Below, piece by piece: positions 1-28,156 of a stretch of 64,000 nucleotides of DNA; the stretch's first letter is position 1, and every line of letters begins with the position of its first letter. The notes under the pieces were generated by a model. That model saw only the letters and a program-made list of their open reading frames with translations. It was not told the DNA's origin and ran no database searches. The position numbers were made by a program, and so were the translations under genes. The stretch is from the NCBI RefSeq assembly GCF_014633365.1, contig NC_068338.1, positions 9,248,616-9,312,615 of the forward strand. Direction: 5' to 3'. This stretch comes from Diospyros lotus (lineage: Eukaryota; Streptophyta; Magnoliopsida; Ericales; Ebenaceae).

Positions 1-3000
1 AAATTCGTCAAATATCTCTTACCACGATTACAATACATAGTAATCATAACTTATAACTTTAATAGCATAATAAGTAAATCTGAGCTTAACTTAACCCTTG
101 TTTATACAACCGTGATACACAACTTCTCAAAATAACCCAAGAATTACATAAGATCCATAGAACATGAGTAACAAGAAATTAAACTAACTTTGGCCTCCTT
201 GTAGCCCTTTCCTCTTTCTTATCTCCGGGTACCTGGAACGAATGATATACCTGGGATGTTGAATATCCCAAAGGTATGAAACACCCGAGTTAGATTGTTA
301 CATCTAAATGAGTGGTACAAGAAAAGGAAAGCTCATGCATGCAAAGCAATATGCAATACGCCATGAAATATGAAAAATCAAGTATGAAATCTTCCCAAGA
401 ATCAAGAAACTTCCCCTGTGGTAACCATGCCAAAACGCGACCATCTTCGACCTTCTCGACCCCCTTACACAGGCACGAGATAGCTCGAACTAAAATGCTT
501 GTTTACTTACCATGTCATGAACCCCTCGGCCCCCTTACATAAGCTCAGGTAACCCCCTTACACAGGTCCACGTGGTAGTTCACACACAACAAGCCACCAA
601 CTAGCCATAGATACAAATACTAAGGTGCATATAAAATAGGCAAGATATGCTAAAAAACAATAAAACATGAGACATAACCTCTCGGCCCCTTTACACAGGC
701 ACGAGGTATCCTCCTTACTTACCATGTATGAACCCCTCAACCCCCTTACACAAGCTTGAGGTAGCCCCCTTACACAGACCCACGTGGTTAGCCCCCTTAC
801 ACAGGCCCCCGTGGTAGTTCACACATGACAAGCCACCAATAAGCCCCAGTCATCAAACAACATGATGTAAGATAAAGAAAAAGGAATATGAATAAACCAA
901 GGGAAGAATGATATGCATGTCACAACCCAGTCCTATGGCACGAACATGATTTCCCACGATGACCCATCAACAACCACAACCACACACTACGTGATGTGTG
1001 CAAAAATGGAAAAAATATGCTTGAAACAAAGGAAACATGAGATGAAAGCCACAGCCCATCCACAAATAAAACCAATGAGGATCAAGAGGAAGTAAGAAGC
1101 ATCCAGAACCACTAACACCATGATCACAAAAACGCCATGATATGTGCAAAATAGGGAGGATATGCTCGGAAACAAGGAAACCATGAAACGCAAGCCACAA
1201 CCACTTGTAAATGAAGTCAATAATGATCAAGATGAAGCAAGATACATGAAAGAATAGTTTACATGCACAAGAACCACTCACCTTGACTGTTTACCTTTTG
1301 AGTGCATCGTTTACATGCAAATCGAGGCTATTTACTGCCAAAATATGAGTTTTCATAAGGTAAATTCCAAATATGTTTTATATAGAGTTGTAGGGATTCA
1401 AAAGAGGAGTATGAGTTAAAATTTCATGGAAAAAAAAGGTTTCACGCACCCCGGGAAGGGGCCTCACGCGCTACCCCTATTTTTGGCCAACATCGCGCAG
1501 TTTCCGTATTTTAACCATATCTCCCTTGTTTTAACTCCGATTCAACCCCCGTTTGAACCTACAGACTCCTCTTTCGACTTTCTACATGATTACAAAAAGA
1601 AATTGAGCTTACCTTGGAATTTTTGTGACTGTTATGCACAAATTGCAAGATGGATTTGTAACTTCCGGCAGCTTGATTTTCCCTTCAACTCGGGCAGAAC
1701 TTTCTCCCTTTTTTCAAGAAGAATTTCCCCTCGTTCATGATTTTCCCCAATGCATGCTTATATAGAGCCCTTAAATCCATAAGATTGAGACATTTGGCTT
1801 TCTTAAGATGGTGACACTTGGCATTGAGATTTGCACCATAATCATTGCTTTCTTTCCCTTATGACAATTGACCCTTGAGATATGGGCCTAATCATGACAT
1901 TTTAAACCCTTCGACGAATGGATTTTCTCCACATGTCATGGGGATTTGAGCTATAATGATTACTTTCATCCTACGGCGCCACGTGTCCCTCAAGATATGA
2001 GCCATCATCATTACTTTCATCCTACGGTGCCACATGTCCCTCAAGATATGAGCCATCATCATTACTTTCATATATTTCCATCCAAATGGTGTCATGTGTC
2101 CCATATAATCATTACTCCCTTGTGTTTTCATCCAAATGGTGCCATGTGTCCATATAATCATTTATATCCATGTGTTTCCATCCAAATGGTGTCATATATC
2201 CCTTAATTGAATTTAATGGAGTTTGGAATCCAAAGGTTCATTTGATTTGAGTTTGAAATTGTAACACCCCTTCTCCTAGAACTGACCGAGAAGAGGTGCT
2301 ACTGGGGATAATAAAATAAACTGGCTGATAAACTGAAATCTGATACCATGACTGAACATCTCAATCAATTGGAATAAAAACTTTGAGTCAATACAGACTA
2401 AAAATCATAAACTCTGAGTAAGGGACAATCCCTCAATTGAAATATAAAAATAGATCTAAACTGACAAACACTATAAACTAACAAACTCTCAGACATCTTT
2501 AATCTTGAGCGGCTCCACGTACACACACTATAGACCACTGCTGCTAGGCCCCACATCTGGTACTCCCCTGCTAGAACCTGGAGGGGTGAAGAGTACAAGG
2601 TGAGCTACAAAAGCTCAGCAAGTAATAAGCTAGAAAGAATACTGAAGCTGAATCGAAAAATATCGACACTGATAAATACTTACTGAACTTGTACTAAATA
2701 ATCACTGTCTGATTGCATTTATAAAAATGTAATGCACATAAACTATAAACTAAATGCAGGTATGCAACTTTGGCCCATAGGCCCACATAATCTGGTAAAA
2801 CATACCTGACTGATCTAAAACCTGCATACATAAAAACTGTAAGCACATACTGTGGGCAAAGCCCCTAGCCCCCTGGTTGCCACCAGGCGAGCAACTCATA
2901 AACTGAGCTGAAACTGAAACTGATGGGATCTCCACGGACAAGCCGCCTAGAGCGCATAATGCAATGCAATGCTCACATAAATGCTGGCACACGATATGTA

Positions 3001-3276
3001 GTGCTCCATATAAAGTCATGCTCAATGCTCATACCAAAATGTATACACATAATCTCACAAAAATAATGTTGTTCATATTATAATAATGCTGAACATGATA
3101 TGATCTTCATCTATATATTAGAATACAAAGATTCAATGAACTATGATTTAGGGTATGGGTATGATTAACTTGTCATGTTCTGGCTTATGAATTCAATGTT
3201 GGAAGGTATTGCATACATTAATTGAATTAAACTTGAATTAGGACTCACTGGAAGCTAAATTGGATTTTTGAAAAAG

Positions 3277-3620
3277 TCATTCGGATATCAGGAAGTATAT
3301 CTGAATATGATGAAAGACATCCGGATATGAAGAAGGCTCATCCGGATACACTGACATTCAAAGAAGAAGCTATTCGGATATGCTGGGAAGTATTCAGATA
3401 TGAACTAAGACATCCGGATATGATTCTGGTCATCCGGATATCTCACTGATGCATTCGGATATAACTGGGGACTATTCGAATGAAAAATTTAACTTTTGAG
3501 GGAGGCATCCGGATATCAGGCGAGACATCCAGATATTATCTTGACCTTTTCGGATGTATAAACAAACCATCCAAATATCATACTCAAAGAACTTTAGATA
3601 CATCCGGATATGATACAAGG
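3277..3620. repeat. Degenerate array of ATCCGGATAT-type motifs
   Basis: The near-palindromic motif (C)ATCCGGATAT(GA) recurs about a dozen times with irregular spacing of roughly 20-35 bases inside the solo LTR. Several copies are mutated to ATTCGGATAT. It lies directly before the 33-bp array. Confidence 0.7.
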
Positions 3621-13504: not shown

Positions 13505-14168
13505 ACTAGCGAAGGACTACCTATCCGTCACTAAAATAAATTAAAAATATTTTTATAATAATCTAAATATATTTATAAAATAAAAAATAAAATAAAATTT
13601 AAAATTTAGCGACGAAAATATAATTCCATCACTAATGCTAAAAAATAAAAAAAAAATCATGTAATTAGAGATGGAAATTTTTTTCTATTGCTAACTACAA
13701 TTTTTTTATTTTTAAAATTTAGCGACGAACATTTATGTCCATCGCTAATTTTAGCAATGGACTAATATTTTCGTCGCTAAATTTTAAAAATAAAAAAATA
13801 ATTTTTTTATGTAATTAGCGAATAAAAGATTTTTCGTCGCTATTCTCAGAGACAGAAAAAATGTTTCATCGCTATATTCAACGATGGAATAAATTTTTCA
13901 TCACTAAATACAAAAAAAAAATTCTTTTTTATTTTTAAAATTTAGCGATGGAATGAAATTTTCATCTCTAATTTTAAAAAACTTTTTTGCTTTCAATTTT
14001 TTTATGACTTTAGCGACGGAATATTGTTCTGTCGCTAATTTGCATCACTAAGTTTATGAAATTATTTTCCTATGATCTGTCGCAATCCGTCGTTGTTTCG
14101 TTGCTATATAGTGACAGAAATTTCAGTCACAAAAAATTTCGTTGCTAAATCTTACATTTCTTGTAATG
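13505..14168. mobile_element. CACTA-type element end with subterminal repeats
   Basis: There are many alternating copies of TTTAGCGACGRA and its complement TCCGTCGCTAAA. The sequence finishes at TTTCTTGTAATG (14157-14168), the complement of CATTACAAGAAA, a near-canonical CACTA terminus. The left terminus was not found, so the element is probably truncated. No transposase is present. Confidence 0.6.
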
Positions 14169-14266
14169 AAGTTAGGTATGATTATGAGGATTTGAGTATA
14201 ATTTTGTTATGTTCTCTACCAGCCTCGTATTTAATTTTCAAAGACACCAGACACTATAGTTGTAAT

Positions 14267-14493
14267 TGTAGTACCCCGAGAGTTAAGAAAAATGATAGTA
14301 TATATTGATGATAAGTAAAGAAGAAAACAACACCAGATGGATACCTTTTGAGCTGAATGTAGGCAAATAACTCTCAGGTTAAGCATGTTTGAGCTGGGGA
14401 AGCTCAAGAATGGTTGACCCCCTGGGAAGTTCGTGTAGGTCCATCATGGTAAGTTGTTCCGTTCCTTCCTATCGCTTGATGTGGGACGTTACA
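14267..14493 (+). mobile_element. Cassandra-type solo LTR carrying a 5S rRNA-like domain (copy 1)
   Basis: A 227-base unit runs from TGTAGTACCCCGAG to GGACGTTACA. Positions about 14371-14439 (GTTAAGCATGTTTGAGC ... TGACCCCCTGGGAAGT) match the 3' two thirds of plant 5S rRNA, the defining feature of Cassandra TRIM retrotransposons. No primer site or internal domain follows, so it is a solo LTR. Left flank GTAAT and right flank CTATC do not match each other, but each is the complement of the corresponding flank of copy 2. Confidence 0.8.
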
Positions 14494-14899
14494 CTATCAA
14501 ACGTGCATGTTGTGTCAAGGATCCAATATTCGCTAGGTTTAGTAACCTCGTTAGTAACCACCATAAGTTCCCCATCATTACTATTGTTTTTAACAATATC
14601 GGTTTCACTAAAAGTTTCTAGTTGTTTTCCTTTCTAGTTAAATTTTTGTCTCTTAAGTTTGTTATGTACCTTATAACACTCATTCTTTATGCGTTATTTC
14701 TTCTTACAGTAATTACAAGTTTTTTCTTTGTTCATGGACTTGGATCTACTTTTTCTTTTACCACTAGAATTTCTATCCTACGTTCTTCCTCGAATCAACA
14801 AACCCTTCTCCTGCTTTTCAGAAATCCCCAATGACTGCTTATCAATTTTCTCTTTCGAGAACAAAGTATCATAAACTTCACCTAGGATGAGAGTATTAC

Positions 14900-15126
14900 T
14901 GTAGTACCCCAAGAGCCCAGAGAAAAGGTAGTGTATATCGAGGATAAGTAAGGAAGGAAACAACACTACCTAGATATCTTTTGGGCTGAATGTAGGCAAA
15001 GAACTCCGAGATTAAGCGTGCTTGAGCTGGGGAAGCTCAAGGATGGGTGACCCCCTGGGAAGTTTGTGTAGGCCCATCAGGGTAAATTGTTCCGGTCCTT
15101 CCTATAGCTCGGTGTGAGATGTTATA
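14900..15126 (+). mobile_element. Cassandra-type solo LTR carrying a 5S rRNA-like domain (copy 2)
   Basis: The same length (227 bases) and orientation as copy 1, from TGTAGTACCCC to GATGTTATA. The 5S-like domain at about 15001-15064 is better preserved: GAACTCCGAGATTAAGCGTG, then GGATGGGTGACC and CCTGGGAAGT. The terminal CA has become TA. Flanks are ATTAC and GATAG. Confidence 0.8.
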
Positions 15127-15240
15127 GATAGCTCCTAATAGGGATTGGTTTTTGACATATAAAACTTTGACTTCTGGTAATGTGTTGATGGGTAATAATT
15201 TTTTTTATAAAATTGCTAGCATCGAAATAGTTAAAATTAA

Positions 15241-15643
15241 TGAGATCTGACACATAGTTACTAAGTTTGTGAGTTTGTCAGTCCATGGCTCTCGCTTAGT
15301 TGGGACGTTAGCTGATGAAAAGATTATAGCACATGGCAATCGTCAACTATAATATGTTCACTTAAAGTGAGACTTCACTGCCTCCTATACTGTTCTGAAC
15401 TACTACTAGGAGCTATTTAAAAAATCTTGGAATGTCAGTTTTAGTGATGGGTCAAGCGATTCATTGATACCGGAAAGGTTTTTAGTGTTATCTGATTGCT
15501 AGCGGGTAGTGAACTTAGAAAGTCACACCTATATAATGTTGTGTTTGGTATTGCTATCATGTGCTTAAAAATGTCTCTAGAAGTTGTTGGTCAAAAGTTG
15601 ACCCCTAACCTCCTGCTAATAATGCATAGTGCATAGTGTATAG
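15241..15643 (+). other. Unassigned sequence between copia fragment and solo LTR
   Basis: No gene or element boundary was recognised. It may be a further decayed part of the copia element, since the protease fragment runs into it. Confidence 0.4.
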
Positions 15644-17435
15644 TGTTAGATTTGAATAGCAATGGCACCAACACCAAGAGGGGGGTGAATTGGGTTGTTT
15701 TAAAAATTTGATTGAACTTGAAAATCCTTTTAATGAAAAATGTGATTTTAGTGAAAGTGAGGATTAATGAAATGCTTGAAACAATAAATGAAACAAATAG
15801 CACAAGCATATAAGAGACAGAACGATATATAGTGGTTCGGCTTAAACTAAGCCCACTCCACTACCTTAGCTCCTCACTAAGGATTTTTCAATCAATCCAC
15901 TAAAAACCTCCTATATCTCCGGATAGGCCCTCTAGCAACAAGCTAAGAAATACAACCCCTTGCTTCAACAAGAAATTCCTCTAGCACAATAAGCTAGGTA
16001 TTCAACCCCTTGCTTCAATAAGCAAGTCCTCTAGCACAACAAGCTAGGAATCAAAATCCTCCTACAAGCAAGGTAGTCCCTCTAGCAAAACAAGCTAGGA
16101 AAATTACAAAGAGGTATAAGATAGGAGAGGATCTGAGAAACAATATTATCACTTACAAATTCTCTCAAATATAAATACAAGGCTTAATAATGAATTTAAC
16201 CAAATGAATACAAAGCCTTGAAAAGAGAACGAATTTACCAATGAAGCACAACAATGATCTTGGCACTTGGGAGCTTGTAATGTAATCTCTTGGTTGGTTT
16301 GAATCACCCATTTGACTTGTATTTATAGTCCCTTGAGAGCCCATTCACGAATCTTGCCATTGGAAGTGGAAGAGCCACTTTGGGTGAGTGGAAAAACTAG
16401 CCATTGGGGGTTTCTGTGACACAAACGGTCAACAGATGCAAGGCATCGGTCGACAGATTAGCAAATATTTAAAATTCAATCGACGATGAAGAAGAACGGT
16501 CGACAGATGGTGCACACTATCGAAGCATCACTGAATGGCATTCTGTCGGTCGACAGATGGACAAAAAATATAAGGCCGGTCGACAGATGGAGAGAAATCT
16601 GTTGACAGATAAAGCCATCCTTCAGGACATGCATACAGCACAAAGTAAATGTCCTTATTTTGTTTTGTTTATATTTTACCTTTCATTTACTTTAATACAT
16701 AAATGTAAATAAGAAAGTACCTCTCATTTGGATTTAATAAAAATATCTAAAAAATCAAAATCCATAAGAATAAGAAAGTAGAAATTGGGTTTTAGTACAA
16801 ACTTAGGATTTTGCGATTTTACCACCTCCAAGATATACACTTTTCATTTCTTGAAAAATTCATTAAAAATCATTTTAACACTAATGAATGATAGGTATTG
16901 AAATACCGGGAGATAGTTTTTCAAAATGAAATCATTTTCTTATATGTCCTCTTATAAGGTGCTAGTCTTCCAAACTTAGAAAAATTTTGAAACGTTATCA
17001 AAACGAGTTTCAAGACATGATGCATGAACTAAAGGATTTTTCATACGTTTAAATTTCAAGTCAAAACCTTTCATGCACGCTTTAAAATATGAAAGCTTAT
17101 TTTGAAATATGAGATTAACATAAATGTTTTTTCATATTTAAGATTAGTTTTTCATCAAACACATTTATGTTCTATTGGTCTTTTGCCTTAAAACAATTTT
17201 AGCTCTATGTTGACCAACAACTTCAAACCTAATTTGAAAAATCATTTTAGGAGATTTCATCATAATATATGTTTGAGCCAATCTCCATGTACAAGAATAT
17301 AAATCATTTGGTTTTCATTTTAACAAAGTATTTGAAATTGATTTTTGTTGAAAACCATAAACTTGACTCGTGACTTTGGGATAGAACAAAGTATTGTTTT
17401 TCATCATCAAAACTAAACACAAGGGTAGAACATCA
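15644..17435 (-). mobile_element. Solo LTR of the GTCGAC-array copia family, target duplication TATAG
   Basis: It starts TGTTAGATTTG and ends AGAACATCA, flanked by TATAG at 15639-15643 and 17436-17440. It is collinear with the LTRs of the Sirevirus-like element. Shared landmarks are the CACCAAGAGG...GTGAATTGG start, the TAGTGGTTCGGCTTAAAC block, CCTCTAGC/AAGCTAGGA repeats, GGTCGACAGATGG repeats (16430-16600) and a CATCATCAAAACTAAACACAAG end. Strand is inferred from the full-length relative. It is clearly diverged from that copy. Confidence 0.85.
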
Positions 17436-20522: not shown

Positions 20523-22146
20523 TGTTAGAACCAAAGGTGCTATGGCACACACCAACAGGAGGGGTGAATTGGTATAATTAAAACTCTTGATAGAACTTGA
20601 AAACTTTTTGACCCAATTGAGGTTTTAGTGACTTAAAACATAGAACATATGAGATGATAAATGTAAAGCAAGAAGAATAAAAGACACAAAGGATTTATAG
20701 TGGTTCGGCTTAAACCAAGCCTAATCCACTACCTTAGCTCCCACTAAGGATTTTAAACCAATTCACTAAAACCTCCTACTTACACAAGTAGGCCCTCTAG
20801 CTACACAAGCTAAGAAATACAACCTCCCAATTTAATGGGCCCTCTAGCTACTGCTAGGAAAAATACAACCTCCCAATTTAATGGGCCCTCTAGCTATTGC
20901 TAGGAAAAATACAATCAATCGAATAGAGAATCTAAGAGTACAACTCTTAGTTACAATGATCTCTCAAAAATGATACAAGGCTTGAAGTAAATAATTACAA
21001 GTGAGGATCGAAGCCTTGAAGAGAGAATTAAAGCAAAGACGATTTTAAATACAAATGAGAATAACAGTAAGCTCAAATAATTTCATTCCCGTCCATTAGC
21101 CTTCTCTTGATCATCTATGACATGTATATATAAGTGTCCCACAAAGTTGAAGAGAAATATAGCCGTTTGGAGCCGTTGGGATTTGAAAAAATAGCCATTG
21201 GAGCTTTCTGCAAAAAGAAATAGTCGACAGAAGAAATGCATAGTTGACTTTTTACAAGTAAAGCAAGAAATAGTCGACAGACAAAACGAATAGTCGACTA
21301 TTTTATAACACAAATTTTCAATAGTCGACAGACACATTCCAATAGTCGACAGATGCAAAAATGTGAAGAAAATTTTGAAACTCATGAACAAAAATAGTCG
21401 ACAGACCAAAAGGCATAGTCGACTATCCTTACTCGATAGTCGACAGATGCTAAAATAGTCGACAGATGCCTTGAATAGTCGACAGATCAAACAGAATAGT
21501 CGACTATTTTTTAGGCATAGTCAACAGAATGAAAAACATAGTCGACTATCCTTTTGAAAAGATTGAAAATTTATCAAATCCTTATTTAATTCTTTTGAAT
21601 CCTCATTTTGATTATTTTGAAAGCAAGTTGAGATCATCAAAAGTATATTTTGAAACAAATCACTCTCAACAAGTAAGTTTTTCAAATCACTCTCAACCAT
21701 ACTCAATATTTCTTCTATAAGTTTTCATATCTTGCTTCAAAACTTATATACTAAAAATTTATTTTCTCATTCATATAATCCACATAGTAGAAATTGATTT
21801 TCATATAGACATTTATCAAAACCATTCATTACCAAGAGATATTAGATATCAAAATACTAGGAGATAGTTTTCTAAAAATGAACACTTTCTAAAATGAACA
21901 CACTTTCAAAAACATGTTCTAGTTGGTCTTTTGCCATAGAATTATTTTGACCAACGATTTCAAGGAGATTCTTTTTAGATCTTAAAACTTGTTTATGCTA
22001 ATCTCCAAATAATATAAAAGATCATAGATCATTTTAACAAAGCACTTTGAAATTGATTTTTGTTTCCAAACCATATGCTTTGATTGAGAAAAAAAATACA
22101 TTTGAAATTTTTCATCATCAAAACTAAACACAAGAGTAAAATATCA
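20523..22146 (-). mobile_element. 3' LTR of Sirevirus-like element (1624 bp)
   Basis: It runs TGTTAGAACC...AAATATCA on the plus strand, with the plus-strand right end being the LTR start in element direction. It carries about fourteen copies of ATAGTCGAC(AGA/TAT) between 21210 and 21550, compared with about twelve in the partner LTR, which lacks one stretch near 21480-21510. Confidence 0.85.
21210..21552. repeat. Array of ATAGTCGACAGA / ATAGTCGACTAT motifs
   Basis: About fourteen GTCGAC-centred motifs occur, some extended to the palindrome ATAGTCGACTAT. The same array is at 27250-27560 in the other LTR. Related arrays are in the solo LTR at 16430-16600 and in the inverted solo LTR at 29400-29480 and 32270-32570. 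Confidence 0.85.
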
Positions 22147-26551: not shown

Positions 26552-28156
26552 TGTTAGAACGGGAGGTGCTATGGCACACACCAAGAGGGGGGGTGAATTG
26601 GTATAATTAAAACTCTTGATAGAACTTGAAAACTTTTTGACCCAATTGAGGTTTTAGTGACTTAAAACATAGAACATATGAGATGATAAATGTAAAGCAA
26701 GAAGAATAAAAGACACAAAGGATTTATAGTGGTTCGGCTTAAACCAAGCCTAATCCACTACCTTAGCTCCCACTAAGGATTTTAAACCAATTCACTAAAA
26801 CCTCCTACTTACACAAGTAAGCCCTCTAGCTACACAAGCTAAGAAATACAACCTCCCAATTTAATGGGCCCTCTAGCTACTGCTAGGAAAAATACAACCT
26901 CCCAATTTAATGGGCCCTCTAGCTATTGCTAGGAAAAATACAAACAATCGAATAGAGAATCTAAGAGTACAACTCTTAGTTACAATGATCTCTCAAAAAT
27001 GATACAAGGCTTGAAGTAAATAATTACAAGTGAGGATCGAAGCCTTGAAGAGAGAAAATTAAAGCAAAGACGATTTTAAATACAAATGAGAATAACAGTA
27101 AGCTCAAATAATTTCATTCCCGTCCATTAGCCTTCTCTTGATCATCTATGACATGTATATATAAGTGTCCCACAAAGTTGAAGAGAAATATAGCCGTTTG
27201 GAGCCGTTGGGATTTGAAAAAATAGCCATTGGAGCTTTCTGCAAAAAGAAATAGTCGACAGAAGAAATGCATAGTTGACTTTTTACAAGTAAAGCAAGAA
27301 ATAGTCGACAGACAAAACGAATAGTCGACTATTTTATAACACAAATTTTCAATAGTCGACAGACACATTCCAATAGTCGACAGATGCAAAAATGTGAAGA
27401 AAATTTTGAAACTCATGAACAAAAATAGTCGACAGACCAAAAGGCATAGTCGACTATCCTTACTCGATAGTCGACAGATGCTAAAATAGTCGACAGATGC
27501 CTTGAATAGTCGACTATTTTTCAGGCATAGTCAACAAAATGAAAAACATAGTCGACTATCCTTTTGAAAAGATTGAAAATTTATCAAATCCTCATTTAAT
27601 TCTTTTGAATCCTCATTTTGATTATTTTGAAAGCAAGTTGAGATCATCAAAAGTATATTTTGAAACAAATCACTCTCAACAAGTAAGTTTTTCAAATCAC
27701 TCTCAACCATACTCAATATTTCTTCTATAAGTTTTCATATCTTGCTTCAAAACTTATATACTAAAAATTCATTTTCTCATTCATATAATCCACATAGTAG
27801 AAATTGATTTTCATATAGACATTTATTAAAACCATTCATTACCAAGAGATATTAGATATCAAAATACTAGGAGATAGTTTTCTAAAAATGAACACTTTCT
27901 AAAATGAACACACTTTCAAAAACATGTTCTAGTTGGTCTTTTGCCTTAGAATTATTTTGACCAACGATTTCAAGGAGATTCTTTTTAGATCTTAAAACTT
28001 GTTTATGCTAATCTCCAAATAATATAAAAGATCATAGATCATTTTAACAAAGCACTTTGAAATTGATTTTTGTTTCCAAACCATATGCTTTGATTGAGAA
28101 AAAAAATACATTTGAAATTTTTCATCATCAAAACTAAACATAAGAGTAAAATATCA
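26552..28156 (-). mobile_element. 5' LTR of Sirevirus-like element (1605 bp)
   Basis: A direct repeat of 20523-22146 with few differences by eye. The clearest is a short shortening of the GTCGAC array near 27510. Confidence 0.85.

Follow-up and report, generated by a model that had tools for sequence, protein, structure and literature searches.

In the 64,000 nucleotides of the Diospyros lotus genome analysed here (the window), a copia segment is inverted exactly between two solo LTRs of the Cassandra type and the 5-bp target duplications bordering these LTRs are crossed, while related copia copies in the same genome hold the segment uninverted. We consider this to be a real and old rearrangement. 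As to how it arose, the chances are about even that a single, cross-paired event inserted two Cassandra cDNAs, probably members of one small lineage, into the same copia copy.

An inverted copia segment between two LTRs

LTR1 (14267-14493) and LTR2 (14900-15126) both lie on the plus strand. Each is 227 bp long, and the two can be aligned without gaps, with 37 differences (84% identity). The 406 bp between them (14494-14899, minus strand) start with CTATC, end with ATTAC and represent a copia segment reading from gag to protease. The left flank (14168-14266, plus strand) is a copia gag fragment with the translation EVRYDYEDLS...YSCN, which ends in the target duplication GTAAT (14262-14266; site 1). 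The right flank (15127-15240, plus strand) begins with the target duplication GATAG (15127-15131; site 2), followed by a copia protease/Pol_BBD fragment. The earlier sequence-only reading of this DNA had described two co-oriented 227-base LTRs around a 406-base copia segment, which the coordinates and the gapless alignment confirm to the base. It had placed the outer limits at 14169 and 15240. We find the copia start at about 14168 instead; most relatives do end at about 15240, but three of the 29 described below go on into a host-repeat extension (15241-15644, plus strand), L049 to 15637 and L050 and L062 to 15644. The copia fragment is part of a larger repeat (14077-15644). L050 is found approximately 86 kb upstream of the window, on its contig; L060 and L062 have a part of the stretch upstream of 14168 in common with the window.

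The copia gag-protease identity and the inverted middle, both claimed previously, hold on the evidence of Pfam matches of the flanks, proteins that span the junctions, and relatives. The right flank matched PF22936 at profile positions 12-48 with an E value of 1.1e-4 (22.9 bits, below the cut-off of 27), and the left flank gave a weak match to PF14223, also below the cut-off (E 0.2). With the middle piece alone no copia match was obtained in Pfam, and a protein search with the right flank yielded nothing useful; pattern searches in viral_contigs gave no matches. The copia gag/protease reading strand is plus in both flanks and minus in the middle. Read by eye, the proteins P0001 and P0002 span the junction at site 1 and P0005 spans the junction at site 2.

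A search with the middle segment, in which 40 of 244 candidates were scored, revealed 39 relatives in the same genome among the matches listed besides the segment itself. The 29 relatives with loci given were examined, and the other 10 were left out. All 29 match the left flank, and in all of them left flank, middle and right flank are collinear, the middle being turned round in comparison to the window. None of the 29 contains an LTR at site 1 or site 2. The uninverted arrangement, which the sequence-only reading had proposed to look for in relatives, is thus present at each of the related copia loci examined in the same genome. Together with a base common to both copies of GATAG (see below), these relatives support the claim that the breakpoints of the inversion coincide with the LTR ends. 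Among the relatives, L062 harbours a separate insert within its middle segment, and at L077 a Cassandra element is located several hundred bases further on from the copia segment.

The order of the flanking sequences is GTAAT-LTR1-CTATC...ATTAC-LTR2-GATAG. Each end of the middle segment is the reverse complement of the far outer duplication, CTATC that of GATAG (TSD2) and ATTAC that of GTAAT (TSD1), so that LTR1 and LTR2 have 5-bp target duplications in crossed form only. According to the 5-mer frequencies of the window itself, both crossed matches would occur by chance with a probability of 2.5e-6. This value and the collinearity in all relatives examined rule out chance as the source of the crossed flanks, which had been noted earlier and are borne out here. 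At site 2, the first base is G in both copies of GATAG, while it is C in 28 of the relatives and T in the remaining one (L072). Since both copies carry a base that is absent from all 29 relatives, we conclude that GATAG is a real target duplication. At site 1, GTAAT is present in only one of the relatives, L062. Both pairs of 5-mers hence descend from the target of this very copia copy. Where the alignment of a relative reaches both ends (L049, L050, L053 and others), the matches of left flank and middle share 5 bases, which correspond to the duplicated target. The junctions contain no extra sequence beyond the 5-bp duplications. The right flank is one base short beside GATAG when compared to the nearest relatives; the missing base may be due to older or later decay.

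Family and relatedness of the LTRs

Cassandra elements are TRIMs with a 5S-like sequence within their LTRs (PMC10853983 and PMC7215508, in the parts available), and sub-threshold matches of this kind were obtained here. The Rfam 5S rRNA model was matched from its first to its last position with 21.8 bits in LTR1 (5S-like core at 14335-14447) and with 20.0 bits in LTR2 (core at 14980-15079), both values being below the cut-off of 38; at the gathering cut-off there was no Rfam 5S match anywhere in the window. Copies of the LTR were gathered from the genome (G000) with LTR1 as query and with sequence patterns. The query gave at least 41 matches besides LTR1, with 40 of 3,123 candidates scored. 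All 41 were fetched, and dropping the copies without both ends resulted in a set of 68 copies. The LTR is 226 bp long in 55 of 70 copies, and 28 LTR pairs are present at element spacing. Many copies have the primer site TGGTATCA adjoining the LTR, and beside many the purine tract GGGGGGAGAA, or a sequence near it, was found. Direct 5-bp duplications flank the elements L010, L011, L016 and L030, while in others the duplications contain mismatches. The family thus combines TG...CA LTRs with a primer binding site and a purine tract, neither of which is present at the solo LTRs LTR1 and LTR2. Taken together, the sub-threshold 5S-like match, the LTR length, the primer site, the purine tract and the 5-bp duplications fit Cassandra.

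Among the LTR1-like sequences, two were flagged as solo LTRs bordered by a matching duplication. Solo LTRs were further surveyed at 33 loci of C1 and C2, chosen in the order of their listing. The focal LTR proved to be a 5' LTR at 12 loci, a 3' LTR at five and a solo LTR with a duplication (at most one mismatch) at four. At six of the other loci neither a site nor a duplication was present, two were of the TGACAC type, three were without the 3' end, and one was unparsed.

At position 5, LTR1 and LTR2 both carry a G, and near position 24 each has one extra base. With exact patterns, which miss decayed copies, the G5 start is found at 12 places in the genome and the +1 spacing at 22, LTR1 and LTR2 being included in both counts, and only these two LTRs combine both states. 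The normal spacing is found at 835 places, with no G5 among the 100 listed. Two states of LTR1 and LTR2 occur in none of the 68 other copies. Among 2,246 pairs of LTRs from different elements no pair had two such private states, in comparison to one of the 28 pairs from the same element. These shared rare states suggest kinship of the two LTRs, and we regard this evidence as good but not conclusive, because position 5 mutates recurrently (L078 carries G in one LTR and A in the other), the 10 other G5 places are outside the 68-copy set, and the extra base is located within an A-run. A tree of the LTR copies did not group LTR1 and LTR2; it is nearly a star, with good support for four of its 67 inner branches. 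By eye, however, only four of the 28 same-element pairs were grouped, and the tree therefore has little power on the question whether LTR1 and LTR2 are sisters.

The branch of LTR1 (0.13) is longer than that of LTR2 (0.076). Derived sites numbered 22 in LTR1 and 13 in LTR2 with 36 copies as reference (p 0.18), and 23 and 13 with 68 copies (p 0.13). Since a skew of at least this size is seen in nine of the 28 same-element pairs, an equal age of the two LTRs is not rejected. The divergence between LTR1 and LTR2 (16.3%) lies at the top of the range of the same-element pairs (6.2-16.4%, mean 12.0%). Their transversions amount to 4.8%, while same-element pairs have a mean of 2.2% and a highest value of 10 of 223. 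The host DNA is less diverged. In comparison to the nearest uninserted relatives, L062 and L049, the middle segment shows a divergence of 8.0% and 9.3%, respectively; the values are 10.1% in both cases for the left flank, and 10.9% and 13.2% for the right extension. This suggests either faster decay of the LTRs or origin of the cDNAs from different copies. A divergence of 16% is uncomfortably high for identical twin cDNAs.

Possible origins of the inversion

In the reading that we prefer, at about even odds, the two cDNAs were integrated at the same time, presumably by a helper integrase able to pair like ends. At site 1 (GTAAT), the two 5' LTR ends, one from each cDNA, would have been bound in the integrase complex; at site 2 (GATAG), at a distance of about 400 bp, the same would apply to the two 3' LTR ends. 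Both sites would have been cut and filled in normally, resulting in the 5-bp duplications. With each cDNA bridging the two sites, the DNA between them would have been inverted upon joining, the breakpoints falling at the LTR ends, and both elements would have collapsed to solo LTRs later. In a symbolic enumeration of four ends and two sites, the observed order resulted from like-end pairing only (5' with 5' at one site and 3' with 3' at the other). Normal pairing left the middle uninverted with direct duplications, and the remaining cross pairings gave a deletion, or an inversion with oppositely oriented elements. The locus has what such pairing should leave behind, namely co-oriented elements, an inverted target between them, crossed duplications and cuts exactly at the LTR ends. 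One like-end event would explain together the closeness, co-orientation and relatedness of the LTRs, the inversion, the cuts at the LTR ends and the crossed duplications. Against it count the LTR divergence of 16.3%, the longer branch of LTR1, the lack of grouping in the tree and the requirement that both elements become solo.

As the main alternative, two ordinary insertions (GTAAT-LTR1-GTAAT and GATAG-LTR2-GATAG) could have been followed by an end-joining inversion of the middle or of the whole block via TACA/TGTA, which we consider somewhat less likely. This scenario uses known steps only and allows the LTRs to differ in source or age, as their 16% divergence suggests. The facing LTR ends offer a 4-bp inverted match (TACA/TGTA) exactly at the two inner cuts, so a later end-joining inversion could fall exactly there, and terminal inverted repeats are a trait of the family (at least 5 bp in 51 of 70 copies, with a mean identity of 8.2 over 11 bp; 4 bp in LTR1 and 1 bp in LTR2). 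It would, however, require an inversion in addition to two insertions close to each other, and unrelated insertions would not be expected to have the same rare pair of states in both LTRs. Moreover, inverted matches of at least 4 bp number between 999 (14267-15126) and 3,303 (14077-15644); the inner LTR-end pair must be picked from about 1,000-3,300 comparable ones, and microhomology alone would rarely choose it. If the whole block was inverted, it also has to be considered that the present outer LTR ends match by 1 bp only. Replication template switches can invert short segments, and after two ordinary insertions the middle could have been copied in reverse between the facing LTR ends. The short inverted matches at these ends would suit such an event, but we consider it improbable, since two switches would be needed, both exactly at LTR ends, and the junctions are free of added sequence.

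Recombination between the direct repeats LTR1 and LTR2 can be rejected, because recombination of this kind deletes and cannot invert the DNA between, as the sequence-only reading had correctly pointed out. Insertion of a single LTR-copia-LTR element as a unit is rejected as well, because the outer flanks differ (GTAAT and GATAG) and neither primer site nor purine tract is seen beside the LTRs. Recombination between oppositely oriented LTRs, with LTR2 being flipped afterwards, appears very improbable. Inverted, usually non-identical flanking duplications are its stated mark (PMC8225341, in the part available), and the inverted segment with inverted, swapped duplications corresponds to it; however, inverted-repeat recombination requires opposite orientation, the LTRs here are direct, and a second flip of LTR2, exact at both ends, would be necessary. 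An assembly error is the least probable explanation. The locus is known from assembled sequence alone, but the window contains no Ns, both duplications fit to the base, and LTRs which are direct and 84% alike give an assembler no cause to invert the DNA between them. Of the routes that the sequence-only reading had left open (integrase, replication or assembly), the integrase-type one is thus favoured here, though with no better than even confidence; a smaller but real share of belief goes to a later microhomology-mediated inversion, and an assembly error is unlikely.

Like-end integration resembles the reversed-ends or alternative transposition of maize Ac/Ds, as far as described in the available part of PMC8225341, in that ends of two elements take part in one reaction and inversions at element ends with target duplications result. 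Ac/Ds elements are resident and are moved by a transposase by cut-and-paste, while the present locus would involve incoming cDNA ends of a retrotransposon, and a reversed-ends inversion loses the segment between the elements (same source), which is kept here. The reversed-ends class thus belongs to cut-and-paste DNA transposons (Class II), and the elements in question are retrotransposon-family LTRs. Aberrant retroviral integration can be accompanied by host deletions, duplications and, less often, inversions (PMC5041404, in the part available), and it is similar in that integration goes along with rearrangement of host DNA. In the retroviral case integrase joins only one of the ends, host enzymes apparently taking care of the other, and duplications of host DNA tend to be much longer (same source); at the present locus, a 5-bp duplication adjoins each of the four LTR ends, and the duplications are crossed. 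The word "inversion" is absent from the main text of the Cassandra papers PMC10853983 and PMC7215508, and in the literature searched, with most subscription journals outside its scope, no description of this arrangement was found for LTR retrotransposons.

It could go either way whether LTR retrotransposons have an alternative transposition of their own, in which integrase pairs like ends of two cDNAs at two sites close to each other and inverts the host DNA between them, and of which this locus would be a fossil. If so, co-oriented elements with crossed reverse-complement duplications would be a readable mark of like-end integration, and small inversions could be made by retrotransposons directly, through integrase. 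No mechanism can be proved from a single fossil locus. The mark is precise, however, and searchable in any assembled genome, which allows a simple genome-wide test of the idea right away. A scan of flanks for crossed pairs gave no second example in 88 loci, a set with no positive control in it; the same test does flag the present locus. Seven oddly spaced LTR clusters (L087-L093) were also fetched, six from the 100 listed places with normal spacing and one from the +1 set; they can be read as an interrupted element, as arrays, as elements in opposite orientation or as a different repeat. Outside this cluster check lay an opposite-strand pair near C1:20506710 and three pairs 458-479 bp apart.

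Other repeats

Several Cassandra loci have an unusual structure. L028 consists of two LTRs fused head to tail, and at L081 the LTR start is duplicated along with a 10-bp flank, TGGTCATAAA. The Cassandra-like LTRs L088, L091, L093, L097, L102, L118 and L119 have near-constant flanks, TGACACGATGTG before and AAAATGTGTGTCAA after the LTR, as if the LTR were now part of another repeat with its own ends. L118 and L119 are more divergent than the others of this group, and L091 contains three copies approximately 500 bp apart. Within the window, 13577-14120 is an AT-rich stretch with many direct and inverted copies of units like TTAGCGACGGAA; its weak similarity to the MIR2646 precursor model (37 bits) stays far short of the cut-off of 245 bits. 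Finally, two copies of a further sequence, at 20539-20824 and 26568-26853, are approximately 6.03 kb apart, and each is about 75% like 15659-15957.
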